Below, piece after piece: positions 52,171-64,000 of a DNA stretch of 64,000 nt; the stretch's first letter is position 1, and every line of letters begins with the position of its first letter. Source of the stretch: Coriobacteriaceae bacterium EMTCatB1. Lineage in GTDB: Bacteria > Actinomycetota > Coriobacteriia > Anaerosomatales > Anaerosomataceae. The translations under genes were made by a program, and so were the position numbers. Location of the stretch: positions 843,979-907,978 of the forward strand of contig BDLO01000001.1 in NCBI GenBank assembly GCA_001950395.1, read 5' to 3'. The notes beneath the pieces are model-generated. The model did no database searches. It had not been told where the DNA came from and saw only the letters and a program-made list of their open reading frames with translations.

Positions 52171-53459
52171 CAGCGACGACCTCCTTCAGCCGCGCCGCGC
52201 AAGGAATCCAACTCAGACCGGTACAGCTCGTGGAAGCGCGGAACGTACCAGTCGGCCCACACCGACCCGTCTTCGCGACGATACACGGTGAGCTCTCGTG
52301 GAACGGAAGCGTACAGCAAGACACCTCCTGCGAACACGACGAAGAAGCTAGAAAAGAGCAGACCGTATCCCCTGCTCTGGTCGATCGTCAGGACGGCCCA
52401 CCGCCGCACGCCGTCGAGCGAGACGCTCCACGCCCCGATCTTCGCTGCGTCGCCTTCAGTGAGCGATGCCTCGCCGATCTGCCGCCCCTGGCGCAGGAGG
52501 CGCAGCGTCAGCCGCGGCTGGGAGCCCGCAGGCTCGTCTACGTCGCACCGCGCCTTGAGCACGCTCGCATCCGGGAGCGCGCGCTCGACGTACGACGGCT
52601 CCGTCGGGGACTGCGGCTGCGGAAGGTCGAGCCTGATCTTCTGCGCGTCGTGTGGCTGGCTCAGCGTCACGAAGAACGCGTATCCCACGCGGCCTTCTTG
52701 GTGGTAGCGGGTCTGTTCGAAGGTGCGCGGCGAGTTCGTCGTGATCTCCAGGCGCGCCGCCTTCGGCCCGTCCCCGATCACGTACACGCCCGTGTACCGC
52801 CTGGGCTCCCCTGTGTCCCAGAAGCGCGCGATGACCCGCTCGAGCGTGATCGTCTTCGGCACGGCTGCAGCTGGCCCGAGCGGTCCGTGCGAGGGATCCG
52901 CAAGCGCTGAGCCTTTCGGCAAAGTCTGGCCTTCTACGAGCGTCAGCAGACCGACGCTCCGCGTGAGCGTGACTATGACCACCCCGAGCCCCGCGAGCAG
53001 CAGACCCGCGTGCAGGATCGTGGCTCCGAGCAGCCCCCACGGATGCTTGACGAAGCGGCTCTCAGCCGGGCTCCGTCGCACGCGCACATAGCCACGTCGC
53101 TTCACCTCGCGCGAAAGCGCGCCCGCATCGACCACCTCGAATCGCTCGCCCGCTGGGCCGCGCGGCCGCACGAGCCGACGGATGTCACGCCGCGTGATGC
53201 GGAGCGTAGCGCACACGATCTGGAGCAGCGCCACGCAGACGAGCGCCCGGAAGCTCCAGGTGGTGACGACGTGGTCGAGACCGAGCGTCGAGACAGCGTC
53301 AACAGTTGAGGCGCCCGCCTGCGGTTGCTGCGGCACGAGCGCGATCACGAGACCGTACGCCACGGCAAGCGCAGAAACGCTCAGAACCGCGCGGCGAGAG
53401 GTCAGCAAGGCGATCATGGAGCGCTGCGATGGACGCATCGAAACGCGGCTGACACGCAT
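52170..53459 (-). CDS. resB: Cytochrome c biogenesis protein ResB/Ccs1
   Basis: 429 residues. N-terminal helix (AVLSVSALAVAYGLVIALVP), a further helix (RALVCVALLQIVCATL), a conserved WGLLGATILHAGLLLAGLGVVIV stretch and a large extracytoplasmic beta domain, ending in a membrane helix (YGLLFSSFFVVFAGGVLLYASVP). ATG at 53459 shares a base with the cytochrome stop (TGATG). A GTG three bases earlier is possible. With CcsA it forms the system II cytochrome c synthetase. Confidence 0.92.
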   Translation of the reverse strand: MRVSRVSMRPSQRSMIALLTSRRAVLSVSALAVAYGLVIALVPQQPQAGASTVDAVSTLGLDHVVTTWSFRALVCVALLQIVCATLRITRRDIRRLVRPRGPAGERFEVVDAGALSREVKRRGYVRVRRSPAESRFVKHPWGLLGATILHAGLLLAGLGVVIVTLTRSVGLLTLVEGQTLPKGSALADPSHGPLGPAAAVPKTITLERVIARFWDTGEPRRYTGVYVIGDGPKAARLEITTNSPRTFEQTRYHQEGRVGYAFFVTLSQPHDAQKIRLDLPQPQSPTEPSYVERALPDASVLKARCDVDEPAGSQPRLTLRLLRQGRQIGEASLTEGDAAKIGAWSVSLDGVRRWAVLTIDQSRGYGLLFSSFFVVFAGGVLLYASVPRELTVYRREDGSVWADWYVPRFHELYRSELDSLRGAAEGGRR

Positions 53460-56400
53460 CACCAGTTGCCTGATGCTGATGAGTTGCTATGCCCCCTGCA
53501 ACCGCTCGCAGTCGTCACAAAGCAGTTGCTCCGGTTGTTCCCATCACCACCGATATAGGCCGACACGAAGAGATTGCTCTTCACGTTGTTGTACGCGTAC
53601 CGCGAAGGCATGTTGCTGTTCGCGTCGCCTATCAAGCCCTGAAGACCACCGCCATGCGGAACCACGATGTGGCACCGGTAACACGGCTGACTCTGGTGGT
53701 TGTTGTTCCGGTGCACTGATGGACCGGTAGTGATGCTGACTTGGTGGCACCTCGCACAGAGCAATCCTGTCTTGTCCCCTGCAAGCGTGTACGGGGTGCC
53801 GCTCGAGTTCAGCGGCCAGCGTCCCTTCAAGACATGTTTGACGACGGATCCGTGCGGACCGGCCGCCGCACCGCTGAAGTCGCCGTGGCAGTCGGAGCAC
53901 GTCATCGTCTGGTTCGCCACATTCTGCCACTGAGCAAGCATCCAGCCACTGTACGTAGCCGCACTGTTGGTCGTTTTCGCGAATACCGGGTGATACGACG
54001 CGTTGTTGGGGTTGAACTCGAGCGCGACGTCTGTCCAGGCATCAGCGCCCGTGCCGCCCCAGCTCGAAAGCGCAGCGTTCGTGCCGGTCGTGTGGCACTT
54101 GAGGCAGATCTGGTACTCGTAGGTCACGCTGGTGACGAGCGAGTACCTGCTCGCAGTCGGGGTCGTCCAAGCCGAGAGCCCGCTCGTGTCGATCGCGTAA
54201 CCCCACACGCTGGCCAGCGCCGGTCCGGCGACGTTGCCGTTCCCGCCGCCGATCGTGTGGGTCCCCCGCTTGGCAGCGTGGGGGTTGTGGCAGTCCGCGC
54301 ACTCGATGTGCTTGCTTTGCGCCTGGCCGATGTACGCAGTCGTCTCGTCGGACGGGGACGCCTTGTGCTTCGCCGAGTAGCTCTGGACCTTATGGCCGTA
54401 CGATAGCTGCATCTGCCCGTACACCGCGACGGAGGTCGCGCTCATCGACGCGACGCCGTAACGGTCGTACTGGTACGACGCGGTCCACGTCGCACCCTGG
54501 CCGTCTGAGGCCCTGCTGTGGCACTTGTAGCAGAACTGCTCCTCGTACGGATTGCTTATCGCGCCGCCAAGAGAAGCCAGGATGCGAGCCTCCGCGCTCA
54601 GGTGCACGCCGAACGTCGCAAGGGTTCCGAGGGGGCTCCCCTCATCCTGGTACTGCTTTTGCATCGTGTCGTTGTGACACTTGACGCAATCCGCCCTGAA
54701 AGGCGAGGCCGTGAAGGTCGCCGTGGCGGTGTAGCGGTGCTGAGAAGCAGCGTACCCCGTCGCGTCGACGCTCACCGTGTACGTGGTGCCGCTGGATTTC
54801 TGGTCAGCGTTCTGCTTCACGCGAGCCACGGAATGACATGACACGCAGACGCCCGGAGCGCCGGCCGTTCCCGGAGCGATGAAGTCTGTGTTCGTGGCCG
54901 TGCCGCTTGCCGAGGCAACCGTCGTCCGCAGGTTCGCACCCTTGTTGCTGTTGAACAGATCGTGATCCACATGGCACGAGACGCAGTACACGTCGGTCAC
55001 AGTCGTCGGATACTGAGAGCTGGCGGCAGGCGCGAAATCGCCCTCGTACGTCGTCGAACCGAGCACGTGGTGGTAGTACGAGAGGCGACTTGCGCCGCCC
55101 GTCACCGAACCGATGCTGTCTTCCATCGGCTGGTATTCGCTGTGACAGCCGTAACACGACACCTTGCCGGAAGAGATCCCCATCGTCGGGGCATGGACAT
55201 TCGGAGATCCCGCTCCCGAATAAGTGCCTCCGTGACAGTCGTAGCAACTCTTGGTCGACGAGGAGGAGTGAGGATCGCCGCCCCCGAGCGCCTTCAGACG
55301 AAGGTAGTTCTGGCCCAGCGAGTACCCGCTCGGGCGCGTCTGCCCTGGAAGCAGCGTGCCATCACGCCTGAGCCCATAAAACAGCATGTCGGACGTCACG
55401 CTCACGTACGAGGACGCACCGGAGTCCCACACCTTGCCGTCTGACGAAGCGTGGCAGGCGAAGCAGAGTTTCCGCACTTGCGTAGCCGCCGTCACGACTT
55501 GACCGCTGCTGCTTACCGTGGCGTCGAGACTGCCGCCAAGAGTGTCTGCGATGAGCATCTTGTTGCCGCGTGTCGACCCGTGCGGGTTGTGGCACTCGTA
55601 ACACGGCAGCGGCGAGTTCACGGGCAAGACGGCCCCGCCAGTCTTGATCCGGTGGCCATTCGTCGCTGAGGCATCGTCCGGTGACTTCGTCGCGTACTGC
55701 TTGATGTCCACCGCGCCAGAGGCGACCCACGAGCCGCCCCCGTGGCACGCGAAGCACGCCGCCGCGTAGTCGCCGTTCGTGCGATCCAACGCCGCCGTCT
55801 CTGTCGCCGGCGGGCTGTACGTCGCTAGCAGGCTGTCGTATCTGCTCGGTCCGCGATGGCCGGCATGGCACCACAAGCAGTCACCGCGTCCTCGCACGAC
55901 CGTCGCAGTAGCCACCAGCGGATCGGGCACGGTGCCGGTGGGTATGCGCGAGTGCGCGTTTGCAGTCGAGCTCGTGTAGACGCTCTGCCCTGGGAACGTT
56001 CCGTACACGGGGTACTGCGTCTCGTCACGGGAGGGCGAAGACATGGACGGATACGCCGTGCTGGTCGTCGAGCACCACCAGTCCTGCGAGTCGTTGTGAC
56101 ACGCAAAACACCACGTATTGTCATTGGTGGCTGAAACGACGTGGGTCCCCGACGAGGTCACGATGGACGGCCTCGGCAGCCGCGGCGCCGTGGTGTAATC
56201 GCGATGCGGAGAGTGGCAGCTGTCGCAGTCGTGCGTCAGGTCTCGAGGAGACGCAGCGCTCGTTGCGAGCTGATGCCCGCTCGCCAAGCTGAAGGAGTTC
56301 GCTGCTCCTGTCTGGACATTCGTCCTCGCGCCCGCCTGCGCAGAGCCGCTGTGGCACGAGTAGCAGAATCCAGTGACTCCAACGTCGGAGTCCGGCGTCG

Positions 56401-56611
56401 ACGTGGTAAGAAGGAGAGCCGAGGGAGCAGCATGCGGCTTGTGACACATCCCGCAAGCGCTGGTACCAGAAGAAAAACCGACGTGAGGCGCGTCCTGCGC
56501 CATCGCATGAGGAGCAGGGCGTAGCGCCACTAAAGAGACGAAAAGGGCGACCGTTACGACACCGCGCACCGGCCTGGCGCTCCGCCTCTCTGTTTGAGGA
56601 CGATTTCCCAA
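53459..56611 (-). CDS. Exported 19-haem c-type cytochrome
   Basis: 1050 residues with a signal peptide (RGVVTVALFVSLVAL, cleavage near AMAQD) and 19 CXXCH motifs, starting at residues 53, 83, 129, 168, 245, 286, 337, 383, 456, 486, 543, 589, 642, 694, 771, 836, 905, 952 and 977. Many are followed by Pro-His or another distal His. The C terminus has Cys1030 and Cys1038 in an atypical CX7CXGH. Extracytoplasmic, likely cell-surface electron carrier. TTG start with AGGGC site. A strong extended -10 (TGCTATAAT) lies upstream. Overlaps resB. Its family is the doubled-CXXCH multihaem group. Confidence 0.93.
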   Translation of the reverse strand: MGNRPQTERRSARPVRGVVTVALFVSLVALRPAPHAMAQDAPHVGFSSGTSACGMCHKPHAAPSALLLTTSTPDSDVGVTGFCYSCHSGSAQAGARTNVQTGAANSFSLASGHQLATSAASPRDLTHDCDSCHSPHRDYTTAPRLPRPSIVTSSGTHVVSATNDNTWCFACHNDSQDWWCSTTSTAYPSMSSPSRDETQYPVYGTFPGQSVYTSSTANAHSRIPTGTVPDPLVATATVVRGRGDCLWCHAGHRGPSRYDSLLATYSPPATETAALDRTNGDYAAACFACHGGGSWVASGAVDIKQYATKSPDDASATNGHRIKTGGAVLPVNSPLPCYECHNPHGSTRGNKMLIADTLGGSLDATVSSSGQVVTAATQVRKLCFACHASSDGKVWDSGASSYVSVTSDMLFYGLRRDGTLLPGQTRPSGYSLGQNYLRLKALGGGDPHSSSSTKSCYDCHGGTYSGAGSPNVHAPTMGISSGKVSCYGCHSEYQPMEDSIGSVTGGASRLSYYHHVLGSTTYEGDFAPAASSQYPTTVTDVYCVSCHVDHDLFNSNKGANLRTTVASASGTATNTDFIAPGTAGAPGVCVSCHSVARVKQNADQKSSGTTYTVSVDATGYAASQHRYTATATFTASPFRADCVKCHNDTMQKQYQDEGSPLGTLATFGVHLSAEARILASLGGAISNPYEEQFCYKCHSRASDGQGATWTASYQYDRYGVASMSATSVAVYGQMQLSYGHKVQSYSAKHKASPSDETTAYIGQAQSKHIECADCHNPHAAKRGTHTIGGGNGNVAGPALASVWGYAIDTSGLSAWTTPTASRYSLVTSVTYEYQICLKCHTTGTNAALSSWGGTGADAWTDVALEFNPNNASYHPVFAKTTNSAATYSGWMLAQWQNVANQTMTCSDCHGDFSGAAAGPHGSVVKHVLKGRWPLNSSGTPYTLAGDKTGLLCARCHQVSITTGPSVHRNNNHQSQPCYRCHIVVPHGGGLQGLIGDANSNMPSRYAYNNVKSNLFVSAYIGGDGNNRSNCFVTTASGCRGHSNSSASGNW

Positions 56612-56701: not shown

Positions 56702-57316
56702 TCACGCGCGCGGGAAGAACGGGTTTATCCTGCGCTCGCGGCCGATGGTCGTGTCGGGGCCGTGGCCCGGGTGGACGAGGGTGTCGTCAGGCAAGCCAGC
56801 CAGCCGGGCGATCGATCTCGCCATTGCCTTTGGGTCTCCGCCTTCAAAGTCGGTGCGACCGACGCTCCCCGAGAACAGCGTGTCGCCGCTGAACAGGTGG
56901 CCGCTTCCGAGAAGGCAGATCGAGCCCGGCGTGTGCCCCGGCGTGTGCAGGACGGCGAGCTCGACGCCACCCGCCTTCACGACGTCGCCGTCTGCAAGCA
57001 GCCGATCAGGAGCCGGAGCTTCCACGTCGAAGCCGAAGGCCCGGCCGCCGTTGCGATCCGCGGAGGAGATGGCGCCGGCATCCGCCTCGTGCACCGCAAC
57101 CGGCGCTCCCGTTTGCGCCGCGAGTGCAGCGACGGCGCCGATGTGGTCGAAGTGCCCGTGCGTCAGCACGATCGCCTCGACGGAGCTCTCCCCGACGATC
57201 TGGAGCAGGCGCACCGGCTCGCCTGCCGGATCGACGACCACCAGACGCTGCCCGTCGCCGGACACGAACCAGCAGTTCGTCTCAAGGGGACCCACGATGA
57301 GGCGCTCCACGATCAC
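56702..57316 (-). CDS. Metallo-beta-lactamase fold hydrolase (GloB/YcbL-like)
   Basis: 204 residues. Metal site THGHFDHIG (HXHXDH), plus HTPGHTPGS, GDTLFSGSVGR and the terminal LVHPGHGPDT that supplies the remaining ligands. Members hydrolyse glutathione or other thioesters, and the substrate is unknown here. GTG start overlaps the relA/spoT stop by four bases (GTGA), with GAGGAG six bases upstream. The neighbour pair relA-MBL is common. Confidence 0.9.
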   Translation of the reverse strand: MIVERLIVGPLETNCWFVSGDGQRLVVVDPAGEPVRLLQIVGESSVEAIVLTHGHFDHIGAVAALAAQTGAPVAVHEADAGAISSADRNGGRAFGFDVEAPAPDRLLADGDVVKAGGVELAVLHTPGHTPGSICLLGSGHLFSGDTLFSGSVGRTDFEGGDPKAMARSIARLAGLPDDTLVHPGHGPDTTIGRERRINPFFPRA

Positions 57317-59526
57317 GTCCGGCTCCTCTTGCGCCCGTTCGGCTCCGGCAGGCTCCGCCGCGCGTCGAAGACGCCGCCGACCGACCGCACCGAGCCCAGC
57401 ACCTTCGTGAGCTGGTCCATGCTGCCGAGCTCGAGCAAGAACCGCATGGTGGCGATGCCCTGGCGGTCGGTGGAGACCGACGCTGAAAGCACGTTCACGC
57501 CCGCGTCGGCGAGCGCGATTGACACATCTTGCAACAGGCGTGTGCGGTCGAGCGCCTCGATGATGATCTCGACCTGGTAGACGCTTGCAACACCCGTGTC
57601 CCACTCCACCGCGATGATCCGCTCGGGCTGCGCCAGGAGCTCGCGCGCGTTCGGGCAGTCCTTGCGGTGCACCGACACGCCACGCCCTCGCGTCACGAAG
57701 CCGACGATCTCGTCTCCCGGCACCGGATTGCAACACCGCGCGAGCCGGATGAGCAGGTCGTCGACCCCCGCGACGCGCACGCCCGCGGTCGAGCGCCTGC
57801 GCTTGGCCCGCGGCGGTGTCATCGGCTTGTCGAGCGGCAGCCCCGCCGGCTTCTCCTCTGCCGGCAGCTGGACGACCCCCTCGCGCGCGAGGTGCTTGAT
57901 GAGCTTGGTGGCGACCTGCCTCGGGCTCTGCTTGCCAGCGCCGATCTGCGCGAGCAAGTCGTCCGCGCTCGCGAGGTTCATCTCCTTGGCGACGGCTTCG
58001 AGCGCCTTGGCCGCGCCGTGGCTGCCCAGCCCGAGGCCGTGCTTGCGGAGCGCTTTGAGGAGCTCCTCCCGGCCGGCCTGCAGGTCGTCAGTGCGCGCGA
58101 CCTTGCTGAAGTACGCCTTGATCTTCGAGCGCGCAGACGACGTCTTGACGATCGCGAGCCAATCGCGCGAGGGGCTGGCGCTCTTCGAGGTGAGGATCTC
58201 GACGCGGTCGCCCATCTGCAGCTCGTACGACAGCGGCACGATGCTGCCGTTGACCTTCGCTCCGACGCAGTGATGGCCGACCTCGGTGTGGATGGCGTAC
58301 GCGAAGTCGATCGGCGTCGATCCGCGGCGAAGCGAGATCACGTCGCCTTTCGGCGTGAAGACGAAGACCTCGTCCTCGAACAGGTCGATCTTGAGCGCCT
58401 CCATGAACTCACGCGGGTCCTTGAGCTCGGTCTGCCACTCGAGCATCTGCCGCAGCCACGCGAGCCGCTCGTCGAACGACTCGTCCTTGCCGCCTTCCTT
58501 GTAGCGCCAGTGCGCCGCGATGCCGTACTCGGCCGTGCGGTGCATCTCCTCGGTGCGGATCTGGATCTCGAGCGGCCGGCCCGCAGGCCCGATGACCGTG
58601 GTGTGCAGCGACTGGTACATGTTGAACTTGGGCATGGCCACGTAGTCTTTGAAGCGCCCCGGGACCGGCTTCCAGATGGAGTGCACCGTGCCGAGCGCGC
58701 CGTAGCAGTCCTTCACGGAGCCCACGATGACGCGCAGCGCGATGAGGTCGTAGATCTCCGAGAAGTCCTTCCCGCGCTGCGTCATCTTCTGGTAGATGCT
58801 GTAGAGGTGCTTCGGCCGTCCCGAGATCTCGGACTCGATGCCGACCGCCTCGAGCTCGCTTCTCAGCTGCTGGATGACCTGCTCGAGGTACGCCTCGCGC
58901 GCCGCACGGCTCTCCGCCACCATGCGCTGGATCTGGTTGAACTTCTTCGGCTCCAAGTAGAAGAACGCCAGGTCCTCGAGCTCCCACTTGATCTGCGAGA
59001 TCCCGAGGCGATGCGCGAGCGGCGCGTAGATCTCCATCGTCTCGATGGCTTTCTCGCGCTGCTTCTCTGGCGGAAGCGCCGAGAGCGTGCGCATGTTGTG
59101 CAGGCGGTCGGCGAGCTTGATCAAGATGACGCGGATGTCCTTGGCCATCGCGACCAGCATCTTGCGGAGGTTCTGCGACTGGGCTTCTGCGACCGTCGAG
59201 TACTTGATGCGCCCCAGCTTGGTGACGCCGTCGACGAGGGAGGCGACCTCTGAACCGAACCGCGAACGGATCTCTGAGAGCTTCACCCCGCTGTCTTCGA
59301 CCACGTCGTGCAGGAGCGCCGCCTGCAGCGTGATGGTGTCGAGGTGGAGCTCCGCGAGGATCTTCGTGACTTCGAGCGGGTGCGAGATGTACTCCTCGCC
59401 GGAGCGACGCTGTTGTCCCGCGTGCTTCTCGAGCGCGAACTCGTAGGCAGCCCGCAGCCCTGCCAGGTCTGCACCTGGGCTGTACGACTGAACGATCGCC
59501 TCGATGGACTCGATGGTCGCCGTCAC
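57313..59526 (-). CDS. rel: Bifunctional (p)ppGpp synthetase/hydrolase (RelA/SpoT, Rel type)
   Basis: 737 residues. HD hydrolase with GEEYISHPLEVTKIL and LLHDVVEDSG. Synthetase with IYDLIALRVIV and RFKDYVAMPKFNMYQSLHTTVIG. TGS domain with FTPKGDVISLRRGSTPIDFAYAIHT, a helical region, then a zinc-finger-like CCNPVPGD and an ACT domain at the C terminus (ALDRTRLLQDVSIAL). All hydrolase residues (HDxxED) are present, so it is likely bifunctional. GTG start after GAGGA. A TATACT -10 lies 60 bases upstream. Confidence 0.95.
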   Translation of the reverse strand: MTATIESIEAIVQSYSPGADLAGLRAAYEFALEKHAGQQRRSGEEYISHPLEVTKILAELHLDTITLQAALLHDVVEDSGVKLSEIRSRFGSEVASLVDGVTKLGRIKYSTVAEAQSQNLRKMLVAMAKDIRVILIKLADRLHNMRTLSALPPEKQREKAIETMEIYAPLAHRLGISQIKWELEDLAFFYLEPKKFNQIQRMVAESRAAREAYLEQVIQQLRSELEAVGIESEISGRPKHLYSIYQKMTQRGKDFSEIYDLIALRVIVGSVKDCYGALGTVHSIWKPVPGRFKDYVAMPKFNMYQSLHTTVIGPAGRPLEIQIRTEEMHRTAEYGIAAHWRYKEGGKDESFDERLAWLRQMLEWQTELKDPREFMEALKIDLFEDEVFVFTPKGDVISLRRGSTPIDFAYAIHTEVGHHCVGAKVNGSIVPLSYELQMGDRVEILTSKSASPSRDWLAIVKTSSARSKIKAYFSKVARTDDLQAGREELLKALRKHGLGLGSHGAAKALEAVAKEMNLASADDLLAQIGAGKQSPRQVATKLIKHLAREGVVQLPAEEKPAGLPLDKPMTPPRAKRRRSTAGVRVAGVDDLLIRLARCCNPVPGDEIVGFVTRGRGVSVHRKDCPNARELLAQPERIIAVEWDTGVASVYQVEIIIEALDRTRLLQDVSIALADAGVNVLSASVSTDRQGIATMRFLLELGSMDQLTKVLGSVRSVGGVFDARRSLPEPNGRKRSRT

Positions 59527-59626: not shown

Positions 59627-62600
59627 CTATCCTGCACGCGACGGCAGGATCGGGCGGTTGACGCGTGCGAGCAGCTCGTCTGCGCTGGCCGTGAGCACCC
59701 ACTGCTTGAACTGAGCGAACTCCGCCACCGCACGCTTGCCTTCCGCGTAGCGGACCGAGCTGTCGAGGTCGACCTTCCCGCCGCCGGCGTCCAGAAGCTC
59801 GATGCGGCGATACGCGGCGATCCCGCTCGAGCGCACGAGCCCGAGCTCGCGGAACACCGCGAGCGCCGTCGAGACGCCAGACTCGTCGAGCCGCGAGGTC
59901 GGACGCTTTCGCTTCGCCGCCTCGGCGAGCTCCGCGTTCGTGGCCTCGATGCCGCCATCTTCCGCGCCGCGCGCCATGTCGCGGAGGGCGAGGTACAGCG
60001 CAGCGAGGTCGTCGCGCTCGGGAGCGAGCGAGCCCACGATGGACTCGTTGATCCGCGCATCGCGCTCACAGAAGAGCAGGTGGATGGATGCCGGCGCCCC
60101 GTCTCGGCCCGCACGGCCGCACAGCTGATTGAACTCCACCGAGGAGAAGGGCACGTGGTACAGCACCACACGGCGTACGTCGGGGACGTTCACGCCCTCG
60201 CCGAACGCGCTCGTCGCGACGACCGTCCGCACCGAGCCCTCGCGGAACGCCTCTTCCACGGCGTGGCGCATCGACCGGCCCAGGCCGCCGTGGTAGAACG
60301 CAACGGCGTCACGCACCCTCGGCGCCGTGCGGCGCAGGTGCGCGGCGAGGCGCACCGCCTCCTCGCGGCTGTTCACGTACACGACGCTCTTCTCGCCGTC
60401 TGCGAGAAGCGAGGCGAGCGCGGTGCGCTTGTCGGGCGCTCCCCGGCGGTCGTCGATCTTAAGGTTGCTTCGCACCGTCGGATCCAACACTCTGCGCGTC
60501 ACGCCGAGCGCCTGCTCGATCGCATCCGCGACGTCGTCGTCAGCGGTCGCCGTGGTGGCGAGCACCTCGCGCACGCCGGCCGCGTCGAACGCCTCCGCCA
60601 GCCGCGCGTACGCAGGCCGATGCCCGCGCCGGGCCGCTCCCACGTGATGTGCTTCGTCGACGACCGCGAATCCGACGCGGCCCGTTGCGCCGAAGCGCCC
60701 CGCATGCCGCTCGAAGAACTCCGGCGTCGTCAGCACGACGTCGATGCAGCCGTCCGCGAGCGCCTGAAACACCTCGTCGCGCTCGCTCGGGCTCGACTCG
60801 CCCGTCAGCACCGCTGCGCGGCAGCCGGCGCGCGCGAGCGTGCCCGCGAGGTGGTACGCCTGATCAGCGACGAGCGACCGCAGGGGGTAGATGAACGCCG
60901 ACGCCTCGCTGCGCTCGATCGCCCGCCTGACTGCGTGCGCGTGGAACACGAGCGACTTCCCACGGCCCGTCGCCATGACGAGCAGAGTCCGCTCCCCCGC
61001 CTCAAGCGCCGCGAGCGCCTCTCGCTGCGCCTCGTGCAGCGTCACGCCCGGGGCGATCGCCTCGATGACGCCTTCGAGCAGCCGCTCGCCGGGAAGCTTC
61101 GCGATGCGGTCGCGCGCATCCGCCGCCTCGGACGCTTCCTTTGCGCCCTCGTCCTCTGCGTCCGCCTTTCGCACGAGCACGTTCACGCCCAGCGCGCCGT
61201 CACGGGCATCGCCCGTGACCTCGCTCACCACGACCTCGTAGACCGCACCCGCGTCGATGTGGGGGGCGAGCGCCGCGGCGAGCCGGCGGTTGAAGTACCC
61301 CACGCGCGCTCCGCTGGGGTCGTGCAGCGCGCACGCGAACGGGTCGTGCGGGTTGTCCGGCTCGCGCACGATCCGAAGCGGCGTGCCCGGCTCCAGCTTC
61401 GCGACAACCTCCTGCCGCCCCTCGAAGGTCACTCCCGCGAGCTTGGTGTGGAACGCGGGCTCCTCGGCGATCGTCGCGTACTCGCTCCTGTCGAGCGACG
61501 CCTCGGCGCCGTCGAAGAGCGCCTCCACGAGCTCGCGCGCAGGAGCTTCGGGGGACGGGGCGTGCGGGTGCACTCCCCTGACGAGCAGCCGCACACGGTC
61601 GCGACCTCGCCACGACGAGCGCTCCAGCTCTGCGACGACGTCGGCGGCGGTCTCGTGCGCGACGAGCGAGTCGGGATCCGGGCAGCGGAACATGATCGCG
61701 TCCGCGCGCGCGATGCCGTCGTGGACTTCCATCATCAGGTGCCGCCCGTCGGAGCCCACGAGCCGGCAGCGGTCCAGGAACACGCCTGGGAGCGCGAACG
61801 TCGGCCGCGGATTCCCGAACCCGAAGGGCTCGAGCAGCTGGATCTCAGCCGCCGCCTCGATCCCGACGTCAGAGAGGCGCGCAACCGCGTCGACCACGGC
61901 GACGCGCGGCCCAAGACGAGCCACGTCCGCCGCAAGCGCGTCAGCGATCGCCGCGCGGAACGCGTCGATGCTCGCGGACGGCAGCGCGAAGCCGACTGCC
62001 GCTTCGTGACCCCCGAACCGCGTGAGCAACGCCTCCGTGCGGGCGAGCACGCCGTACAAGTCGACGCCCGGCACTGAACGGCCCGAGCCCACGGCCTCGT
62101 CGCCCTCGACGCACAGCACCAGCGCCGGCAGCCCGAACCGCTCCACGAGGCGCGACGCGACGATGCCGCGGACGCCCTCGTGCCAGCCCTCCCCCGCCAC
62201 GACGATCACGGGCGGCTGCGCCCCGCCGTCTGCCTCGAGGCTCGCCAGCGCCGCCTCGAAGACCTCGGCTTCCACCGACTGCCTCACGCGATTGTGCTCG
62301 TCGAGCACGCGCGCCAGCTCCTCGGCTTCGCTCTCGTCGGTCGTCATCAGCAAGCGCAACGCAAGCACCGGGTCGGCCATACGGCCGGCAGCGTTCAGCC
62401 GCGGCGCGAGACCGAACGCCACGCGCTCAGCCGTAAGCTCGGCGAGATCGATCCCGGCGACGGCCGCGAGCGCACGGATGCCGGGCCGGTCCGTCGACCG
62501 CAGCGCGGCGATGCCGGCCGCGACGAGCGCGCGGTTCGGGCCCGTGAGCGGCACGACGTCCGCGACCGTCCCGATCGCCGCGAGGTCGGCGAAGCGCAGC

Positions 62601-63253
62601 CACCCGTCGCCGTCTCCGAGCCGCTCCCCCACCGCTCGAGCGAGCGCGAGCGCGACGCCAGCGCCGGAAAGCTCCGGACCCTCCGCCACGAGCTTCGGGT
62701 CCGCGACCGGAACGCCGTCGGGCACGAGCGCTCCCGGCTCGTGGTGGTCGGTAACCACGACGTCGACGCCGTGCTTCTGCAACACACGCACTTCTGCCGC
62801 CGACGAGATGCCGCAATCGACCGTGACCACGAGGTCGGGGCTCGCCGCCAGCACGCGTTCGAGCACGGCCTCGGTGAGGCCGTACCCCTCGCGGAAGCGG
62901 TGCGGGACGATCGGCGTCGCGTCGGCGCCGAGCCCCTCAAGGGCCAGAGAGAGCAGCGCCGCCGCAGACACGCCGTCCAAGTCGAAGTCGCCGAACACGA
63001 CGACGCGCTCGCTCTCGCGCACCGCGCGCGCGACGCGCTCAGCCGCTTCCGCAAGCCCGGGGATCGCCTGCTCATCAGGCCAGTCGCGCACGAGGGAGGG
63101 CGTGAGAAAGCGGCGGGCCTCGCTTTCTGCGGCCATCCCTCGGGCAAGGAGGATCGATGCCGTCAGCCGCGAGACGCCGAGGGCATCGGAGAGCCGCTCC
63201 GCATCCGCAGCCTCGACCTCACGCCGAAGACGCCATCCGCTGGTACCGCTCAT
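59627..63253 (-). CDS. recJ: RecJ exonuclease - HIRAN - RecQ-like helicase fusion
   Basis: 1208 residues, about twice a normal RecJ. Residues 1-560: RecJ core, with GDFDLDG at 88-94, VTVDCGIS near 145, DHH motif TDHHEPG at 168-174, PRLNAAGRM at 284-292, GGHEAAVGF at 414-422 and an OB region. Residues ~600-695: HIRAN domain (FHTKLAGVTFEGR, EPDNPHDPFACAL, VGYFNRRLA). Residues ~715-1055: superfamily 2 helicase with MATGRGKS (760-767), VVDEAHH (864-870), ATTATA (899-904), VVATSAFGEGVN and NQLCGRAGRDG (motif VI). No four-Cys RecQ zinc domain is seen. The C terminus (DLDSSVRYAEGKRAV, FKQWVL) resembles the tail of Firmicutes RecJ. ATG with GGAG site. Confidence 0.93.
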   Translation of the reverse strand: MSGTSGWRLRREVEAADAERLSDALGVSRLTASILLARGMAAESEARRFLTPSLVRDWPDEQAIPGLAEAAERVARAVRESERVVVFGDFDLDGVSAAALLSLALEGLGADATPIVPHRFREGYGLTEAVLERVLAASPDLVVTVDCGISSAAEVRVLQKHGVDVVVTDHHEPGALVPDGVPVADPKLVAEGPELSGAGVALALARAVGERLGDGDGWLRFADLAAIGTVADVVPLTGPNRALVAAGIAALRSTDRPGIRALAAVAGIDLAELTAERVAFGLAPRLNAAGRMADPVLALRLLMTTDESEAEELARVLDEHNRVRQSVEAEVFEAALASLEADGGAQPPVIVVAGEGWHEGVRGIVASRLVERFGLPALVLCVEGDEAVGSGRSVPGVDLYGVLARTEALLTRFGGHEAAVGFALPSASIDAFRAAIADALAADVARLGPRVAVVDAVARLSDVGIEAAAEIQLLEPFGFGNPRPTFALPGVFLDRCRLVGSDGRHLMMEVHDGIARADAIMFRCPDPDSLVAHETAADVVAELERSSWRGRDRVRLLVRGVHPHAPSPEAPARELVEALFDGAEASLDRSEYATIAEEPAFHTKLAGVTFEGRQEVVAKLEPGTPLRIVREPDNPHDPFACALHDPSGARVGYFNRRLAAALAPHIDAGAVYEVVVSEVTGDARDGALGVNVLVRKADAEDEGAKEASEAADARDRIAKLPGERLLEGVIEAIAPGVTLHEAQREALAALEAGERTLLVMATGRGKSLVFHAHAVRRAIERSEASAFIYPLRSLVADQAYHLAGTLARAGCRAAVLTGESSPSERDEVFQALADGCIDVVLTTPEFFERHAGRFGATGRVGFAVVDEAHHVGAARRGHRPAYARLAEAFDAAGVREVLATTATADDDVADAIEQALGVTRRVLDPTVRSNLKIDDRRGAPDKRTALASLLADGEKSVVYVNSREEAVRLAAHLRRTAPRVRDAVAFYHGGLGRSMRHAVEEAFREGSVRTVVATSAFGEGVNVPDVRRVVLYHVPFSSVEFNQLCGRAGRDGAPASIHLLFCERDARINESIVGSLAPERDDLAALYLALRDMARGAEDGGIEATNAELAEAAKRKRPTSRLDESGVSTALAVFRELGLVRSSGIAAYRRIELLDAGGGKVDLDSSVRYAEGKRAVAEFAQFKQWVLTASADELLARVNRPILPSRAG

Positions 63254-63329: not shown

Positions 63330-64000
63330 CTACGAAGCCTTCGCCGGCTTGCCCGCTTGCTTCTTGCGGAGCGCCTGGTAGCGCGGCTCGGTCTCCTTCC
63401 ACACTGAGTAGACGGTGCTTGCCACGCCCACCGAGGAGTACGCGCCGGAGATCATGCCGACGAGCAGCGCGAACGCGAAGTCCTTGAGCGTCTCGCCGCC
63501 GAACAGGAACAGCATCGTCACCGGGATGATCGACGTCAGGCTCGTGTTGATCCAGCGGGCGAGCACCTGGTTGATGGAGTCGTTCGCCGCCTCGGTGAAC
63601 GTCTTCTTCGTGAGCGTCCGCGTGTTCTCCCGGATGCGGTGGAACACGACGATGGTGTCGTAGAGCGAGTATCCGAGGATCGTCAGCAGCGCCGCGATGG
63701 TGTTCGGCGTCACCTCGCGTCCTAAGATCGCGTAGATGCCGAGCACGATGAGCGCGTCGTGCACGAGCGCAAGCACCGCAGTCAATGACATCTTATACTC
63801 GAAGCGCACCGAGATGTAGAGCAGGATCGCGAAGATCGAGATCGCAAGCGCCGTGAGCGCAGAGCGCGTGACGCTGCGGCCCCACCCCGGACCGATGGTC
63901 GTGACGGTGACTTCTTGCTCCGGAAGCTTCAGCTCGTCGACGACCTTCAAGAACGCCTCTTCCGCTTTCTGCGGATCCGATTCAGACGTCCGCACGAGGA
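63330..64000 (-). CDS. secF: Protein translocase subunit SecF (C-terminal part; 5' end outside the window)
   Basis: About 223 residues visible. Ends of the periplasmic domain (DPQKAEEAFLKVV), then the RND-type membrane bundle: SVRFEYKMSLTAVLALVHDALIVLGIYAI, TILGYSLYDTIVVFHRIREN, and NTSLTSIIPVTMLFLFGGETLKDFAFALLVGMISGAYSSV. Works with SecD to use proton motive force in protein export. The frame is open at the window edge, so the start is not seen. The secF-recJ-rel order is typical. Confidence 0.95.
   Translation of the reverse strand, partial: LVRTSESDPQKAEEAFLKVVDELKLPEQEVTVTTIGPGWGRSVTRSALTALAISIFAILLYISVRFEYKMSLTAVLALVHDALIVLGIYAILGREVTPNTIAALLTILGYSLYDTIVVFHRIRENTRTLTKKTFTEAANDSINQVLARWINTSLTSIIPVTMLFLFGGETLKDFAFALLVGMISGAYSSVGVASTVYSVWKETEPRYQALRKKQAGKPAKAS

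Follow-up and report, generated by a model that had tools for sequence, protein, structure and literature searches.

A RecJ-HIRAN-helicase fusion protein in Coriobacteriia

Can a single polypeptide carry the nuclease RecJ, a HIRAN domain and a RecQ-like helicase, and what would such a protein do? The question is raised by one gene in a 64,000-nucleotide stretch of the genome of Coriobacteriaceae bacterium EMTCatB1 (the window; contig BDLO01000001.1, positions 843,979 to 907,978). An earlier note, made from the sequence without database searches, had described there a single open frame of 1208 codons with all RecJ motifs, a HIRAN-like segment and a complete set of superfamily 2 (SF2) helicase motifs, and had read it as a self-contained end-resection machine. 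The frame was found exactly at 59627-63253 without a break, on the minus strand, which the note had not given. A GGAG lies a few bases upstream of its ATG, and its base composition is ordinary and uniform along the whole gene.

Domains and active sites of the fused protein

The gene and its parts, in order from the N-terminus, are as follows (dN/dS, ratio of nonsynonymous to synonymous substitution rates; AF2, AlphaFold2; pLDDT, predicted local distance difference test).

59627 to 63253, minus strand: recJ-HIRAN-helicase fusion gene, 1208 amino acids, uninterrupted ATG-to-stop frame
62567 to 63007, minus strand: RecJ DHH domain, residues 83-229 (Pfam PF01368, E 9e-18; GDFDLDG 88-94, TDHH 168-171)
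61931 to 62212, minus strand: RecJ DHHA1 domain, residues 348-441 (Pfam PF02272; GGH 414-416, R392)
61577 to 61894, minus strand: RecJ OB domain (RecJ_OB), residues 454-559 (Pfam PF17768, E 7e-22)
61208 to 61447, minus strand: HIRAN domain, residues 603-682 (Pfam PF08797, E 1.2e-10, 41.5 bits vs a cut-off of 24.7)
61049 to 61168, minus strand: loose linker between HIRAN and motor, residues 696-735 (dN/dS 0.73; a block of low pLDDT)
60524 to 61033, minus strand: helicase lobe 1, residues 741-910 (Pfam PF00270, DEAD, E 2e-20)
60098 to 60430, minus strand: helicase lobe 2, residues 942-1052 (Pfam PF00271, Helicase_C, E 4e-23; QLCGRAGR 1043-1050)
59630 to 60028, minus strand: C-terminal domain (CTD) with a predicted winged helix, residues 1076-1208 (conserved; helices and a strand pair in the AF2 model)

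All Pfam matches of the protein were above their curated cut-offs. In the RecJ half, the motifs GDFDLDG, TDHH and GGHEA (residues 414-418) were present as the note had claimed, and the score against the NCBIfam RecJ equivalog TIGR00644 was 438.3 bits, above the cut-off of 396.9. Conservation was assessed in 121 distinct fused proteins, 81 with and 40 without HIRAN, each residue being scored where it was covered. D89, D91, D93, D146, D169, H170, H171 and D232 showed no variation; the same held for R392 and G414-H416 apart from single undetermined letters, and H358 varied once. Structure prediction bore out the domain assignment, the folds matching RecJ and RecQ-type helicases: the AF2 model of residues 10-1208 had a pLDDT of 89 and a predicted template modelling score (pTM) of 0.76, and VIA-align placed it on the RecJ of Deinococcus radiodurans with a Z of 54 over 515 residues at 3.0 Å. 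The DHH-DHHA1-OB arrangement and all catalytic residues are common to the fused protein and the RecJs of D. radiodurans (5f54-5f56), Staphylococcus aureus (8y30) and Thermus thermophilus (2zxo), but these RecJs of known structure carry only a short C-terminal domain, whereas the fused protein has about 640 extra residues comprising HIRAN, a complete SF2 motor and the CTD.

The HIRAN match is not a chance one, given its Pfam score above cut-off and the HLTF HIRAN as the best PDB relative (E 0.0025), and the missing match that the note had feared did not materialise. R613, Q614, N634 and D637 were kept in 79-80 of the 81 HIRAN-bearing proteins. The HIRAN of HLTF stacks a dinucleotide of single-stranded DNA (ssDNA) on Y72 and Y93 (PMC4666394). 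The position of Y72, aligned by hand, corresponds to F610, which is Phe or Tyr in 79/81, and that of Y93 to H636, which is Tyr, His or Phe in 64/81; the equivalents of R71 and Y73, compared along with these as parts of a putative pocket for 3'-OH ssDNA ends, were not conserved. The domain is the same as that of HLTF and Rad5, with the Asn and Asp of the NPxD motif and the aromatic positions retained, but the HLTF domain is coupled to an SNF2 motor and a RING domain, and the one here is flanked by RecJ and a RecQ-like motor. Pfam gave neither an SNF2 nor a RING match for the fused protein at E<=1. Bacterial HIRAN domains can occur fused to nucleases or phosphoesterases, according to one paper that states no more.

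The helicase motor contained ATGRGKS (761-767, Walker A), DEAHH (866-870) and TAT (901-903) in lobe 1, and the series ended in lobe 2 with QLCGRAGR, a QxxGRxGR motif as described in the note. Residues T762, G765, K766, S767, D866, E867 and H869 did not vary in the 121 proteins, bar single undetermined letters, and Q1043, R1047 and R1050 were invariant. A degenerate ATPase site, which the note had named as a possible refutation, was rejected on this conservation. RecQ was the nearest SF2 family by both profile and fold. It topped the profile search with the motor (190.8 bits, E 4e-55), with Hel308 far lower at 114.5 bits; the top PDB profile matches were RecQ, WRN, RecQL4 and BLM, and VIA-align gave Z of about 32 against RecQL4, WRN and BLM. 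The SF2 core with all its motifs is shared with the RecQs of Escherichia coli (1oyw) and C. sakazakii (4tmu) and with WRN, BLM and RecQL4.

The RecQ-like assignment of the note stood only as far as this likeness, since the protein scored below the curated RecQ cut-offs (TIGR00614, 162.7 vs 219.8 bits; TIGR01389, 160.9 vs 640.2 bits) and its architecture is different. RQC, RecQ zinc-binding and HRDC domains had no Pfam match in it, whereas three true RecQs of relatives, used as controls, strongly matched all three; HRDC is common but not universal in RecQs. There were just two Cys past residue 1044, the aromatic-rich loop that follows the DEAH box of RecQ was missing (DEAHHVGAARRGHRPAY vs DEAHCISQWGHDFRPEY), and the CTD is a different one. 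Membership of the RecQ family was rejected on architecture and scores, and because RQC, zinc-binding and HRDC domains are absent the motor is regarded as RecQ-like in its working but not a RecQ by architecture.

Comparison of two congeners (G000 vs G001) gave dN/dS values of 0.16 for RecJ, 0.10 for HIRAN, 0.20 for lobe 1, 0.10 for lobe 2 and 0.18 for the CTD. By these ratios, every domain of the fused protein is under purifying selection, and both catalytic halves look alive, in line with the note's description of them as intact. In the motor tree, the genus of the window (L001, L004) stood on a long branch of 0.82; two members of the same genus have lost the motor, and selection between G000 and G001 is still purifying.

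Distribution, locus and loss of domains

The note had presented a single odd protein, and this framing did not survive the survey of domain order. RecJ and the helicase were in one frame in 52 of 61 relatives by hand count; among the others, three were broken only by contig ends, two had RecJ alone and four, all incomplete genomes (64-86%), lacked the gene in their assemblies. A strong match was present in 221/221 good genomes of the class. Among isolates, Olsenella porci and Parafannyhessea umbonata, for example, had RecJ-HIRAN-helicase proteins, and the form without HIRAN occurred in Collinsella stercoris, C. massiliensis and C. tanakaei. Outside the class, the fusion was complete in two families (f29 and f82), at about 40% identity. 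In the genome scan, the best 80 of 549 relatives were all Actinomycetota going by their titles. As far as these genomes are concerned, the RecJ-helicase fusion is the architecture of nearly the whole class Coriobacteriia, including gut Collinsella and Eggerthellaceae. In one genome (G236), the fused gene occupied two frames (L078, 2594-3802 and 3838-6321) with the break within RecJ, for which a frameshift, a sequencing error and a real split are candidates.

The adjoining genes in the window are the following.

63330 to 63998, running off the window, minus strand: secF, upstream of the fusion gene
57313 to 59526, minus strand: relA/spoT-type gene with a GTG start at 59526, 100 bp past the recJ stop

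No defence genes or CRISPR-like context were found among the genes adjoining the fusion gene. Farther along the minus strand (53459-56611), the window also contains a large frame that resembles a multihaem cytochrome and has 19 CxxCH motifs.

The order secD-secF-recJ-relA was also found in two congeners, G002 and G003, in which recJ had the same neighbours and a gap to relA of less than 110 bp. Their RecJs were only 568 and 566 residues long (L062, 7233-8939, and L063, 5484-7184), HIRAN and helicase being cleanly missing, and neither genome had a HIRAN or RecQ-like match elsewhere.

HIRAN itself was lost repeatedly. On a tree of 118 motors its presence required four changes, three of them forced by well-supported branches, and one seeming loss (L136) was a contig end. 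Because these changes are forced and HIRAN is present in the earliest-branching families, at least three losses are indicated, in Eggerthellaceae, Collinsella and some Atopobiaceae. The fusion persists through this repeated loss, so HIRAN is helpful rather than required.

The motor part was also found by itself. A stand-alone HIRAN-helicase-CTD protein of 648 residues on the viral contig IMGVR_UViG_2837169743 (L188, 3572-5518), near an SSB gene and a PAPS-reductase-like gene, has the same HIRAN, motor and CTD and is 43% identical over its full length to the motor part, but is not fused to RecJ as in the class-wide form. In phage and plasmid collections, no HIRAN-helicase was among the matches listed, which showed the generic RecQ-like core only.

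A probable coupled nuclease and helicase, and competing readings

RecJ depends on RecQ, a 3'->5' helicase, to begin on DNA whose ends are blunt or 3'-tailed (review, PMC4846377). The two are known to cooperate, but are separate proteins, without shown direct contact in D. radiodurans (PMC4846377). The fused protein is probably a coupled unwind-and-degrade resection enzyme that combines the RecJ 5'->3' ssDNA exonuclease, HIRAN and a working SF2 motor of RecQ-like type. Since the two genes are truly fused, with conserved active sites in both halves and purifying selection throughout, coupling of helicase and nuclease is the obvious interpretation. The 3'-ended strand would be engaged by the motor and by HIRAN, which is useful but dispensable; the motor would translocate 3'->5' like RecQ and open the duplex; and the freed 5'-ended strand would be handed to the RecJ active site for degradation. 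This would leave RecA a 3' tail or a widened gap on which to load, and a single chain would do the job of separate RecQ and RecJ in the RecF pathway. We infer in this scheme the polarity, end recognition, coupling, substrate and biological role of the fusion.

The other repair genes bear on this scheme. A true RecQ above cut-off was present in 15/41 relatives. The source genome (G000) had none, nor any other RecQ-like match at E<=1e-30, the next helicase being a DEAD-box protein, and the fused motor is therefore the sole RecQ-like helicase there. Two genes with PD-(D/E)XK domains, forming an AddAB-like pair, were found in G000 and in nearly all relatives. AddAB and RecBCD couple helicase to nuclease for resection, as is proposed for the fusion, but they do so with a PD-(D/E)XK nuclease and SF1 motors, unrelated to RecJ and the SF2 motor; neither of these had a Pfam match in the fused protein itself. 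Given AddAB in the same cell, the fusion is at least as likely to act on gaps and stalled forks as on breaks.

Several observations weigh against the coupled resection enzyme, and the self-contained machine of the note was retained only in part: the fusion, the active sites and the purifying selection speak for it, but its HIRAN is dispensable, being missing from the fused proteins of Collinsella, Eggerthellaceae and some Atopobiaceae. Two congeners have RecJ only and no RecQ-like gene, so coupling to a helicase is not universally needed. AddAB-type genes are available for double-strand ends, and by gene content the fusion is not the only resection route of the cell. Since the aromatic-rich loop and the RQC, zinc and HRDC parts of RecQ are absent, the motor may not share the polarity and substrate preference of RecQ. 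The activity of the fused enzyme, moreover, is predicted from sequence and modelled structure.

Some of these observations would fit a fork remodeller, in which the HIRAN-motor part binds the nascent 3' end and reverses or clears stalled forks like HLTF or RecG and RecJ shortens the nascent lagging strand; the motor would then be more a translocase than a processive unwinder. HIRAN beside an SF2 motor is reminiscent of HLTF, in which fork reversal is driven by HIRAN (PMC4666394), double-strand ends are already served by AddAB-type genes, and the RecQ accessory domains used in unwinding are absent. The motor, however, is RecQ-like and not SNF2, and HIRAN is missing from many fused proteins; we consider this role unlikely. 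A link of the motor to defence or invasion, with RecJ having captured a HIRAN-helicase of phage type that helps to degrade foreign DNA, is very improbable. The stand-alone viral protein near an SSB gene and a weak likeness to the helicase DpdF (119.6 bits vs a cut-off of 550) point that way, but the spread through the whole class at the secDF/relA locus is vertical and housekeeping-like, composition is ordinary across the gene and no defence genes adjoin it. That an assembly error or a frameshift falsely joined two adjacent genes, the danger the note had named, can be dismissed outright, since the source genome is complete in one contig and the same fusion recurs in dozens of independent assemblies and isolates.

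Probable helicase remnants in other RecJs and their meaning

Actinobacterial RecJs of other families mostly extend 220-360 residues past the OB domain, and these tails were compared with the motor of the fused protein. In hhalign, a profile of such tails from other Actinomycetota (L079, L080, L162-L170, L172-L175 and L177-L181) aligned with lobe 2 and the CTD of the motor at a score of 112 (E 6e-15, 230 columns). Taken by part, lobe 2 alone scored 53 and the CTD alone 57 (E 2e-8 for the CTD), and the controls, namely lobe 1, the RecJ core, a reversed alignment and 15 column shuffles, scored 10.7-17. Unlike the fused helicase, the tails have no lobe 1, Walker A, DEAH box or QxxGRxGR and therefore cannot be ATPases. 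The AF2 model of one of them had a pLDDT of 86; its best VIA-align matches were lobe 2 and the following residues of BLM and RecQ1, at a modest Z of 10. Foldseek matched it to helicases only at E of about 1e-3, and S. aureus RecJ was not among the matches listed.

The Firmicutes RecJ C-terminal family PF10141 (ssDNA-exonuc_C) gave related results at lower strength. It matched 10/28 active motors (best E 3.6e-5) and 4/18 dead tails (best E 2.6e-4), all below its cut-off; the matches were colinear wherever ranges were read, and the true RecQs used as controls had none. Both PF10141 and the C-terminal domains of other Actinomycetota RecJs run colinearly with the fused helicase, along the last part of its lobe 2 and its CTD. 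A match of S. aureus RecJ spanning the C-terminus of the fused model is only suggestive because its overall root-mean-square deviation was 18.6 Å. By these profile comparisons, a dead-helicase origin is well supported for the RecJ tails of Actinomycetota and is suggested for PF10141 of Firmicutes. Decay seems the simpler direction, because half a motor is unlikely to have arisen before a whole one.

From this we would give an even chance that an active RecJ-helicase fusion was ancestral to a large bacterial group. The working machine would then survive in Coriobacteriia and in a few sister families of actinobacteria, and other Actinomycetota and Firmicutes (PF10141) would retain only the dead lobe 2 and CTD, put to new use as a platform for binding or regulation. 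The C-terminal domain of Deinococcus RecJ was reported to have no definable homologue by HHpred, yet it binds HerA and SSB (PMC4663267).

No description of a RecJ-RecQ or RecJ-HIRAN fusion was found in the literature searched, nor was PF10141 named there, subscription papers being outside its reach; the RecJ-HIRAN-helicase fusion thus seems undescribed. The NCBI RecJ model scores the whole fused protein as RecJ, and the motor is probably hidden in annotations. A natural one-chain version, under selection across a class, makes the coupling of helicase and nuclease directly testable. The sequences that end in a dead half-helicase offer an origin for RecJ C-terminal domains, and if the ancestral fusion is true, many of the RecJs studied so far would carry in their C-terminal domains the fossil of a helicase that was once built in.

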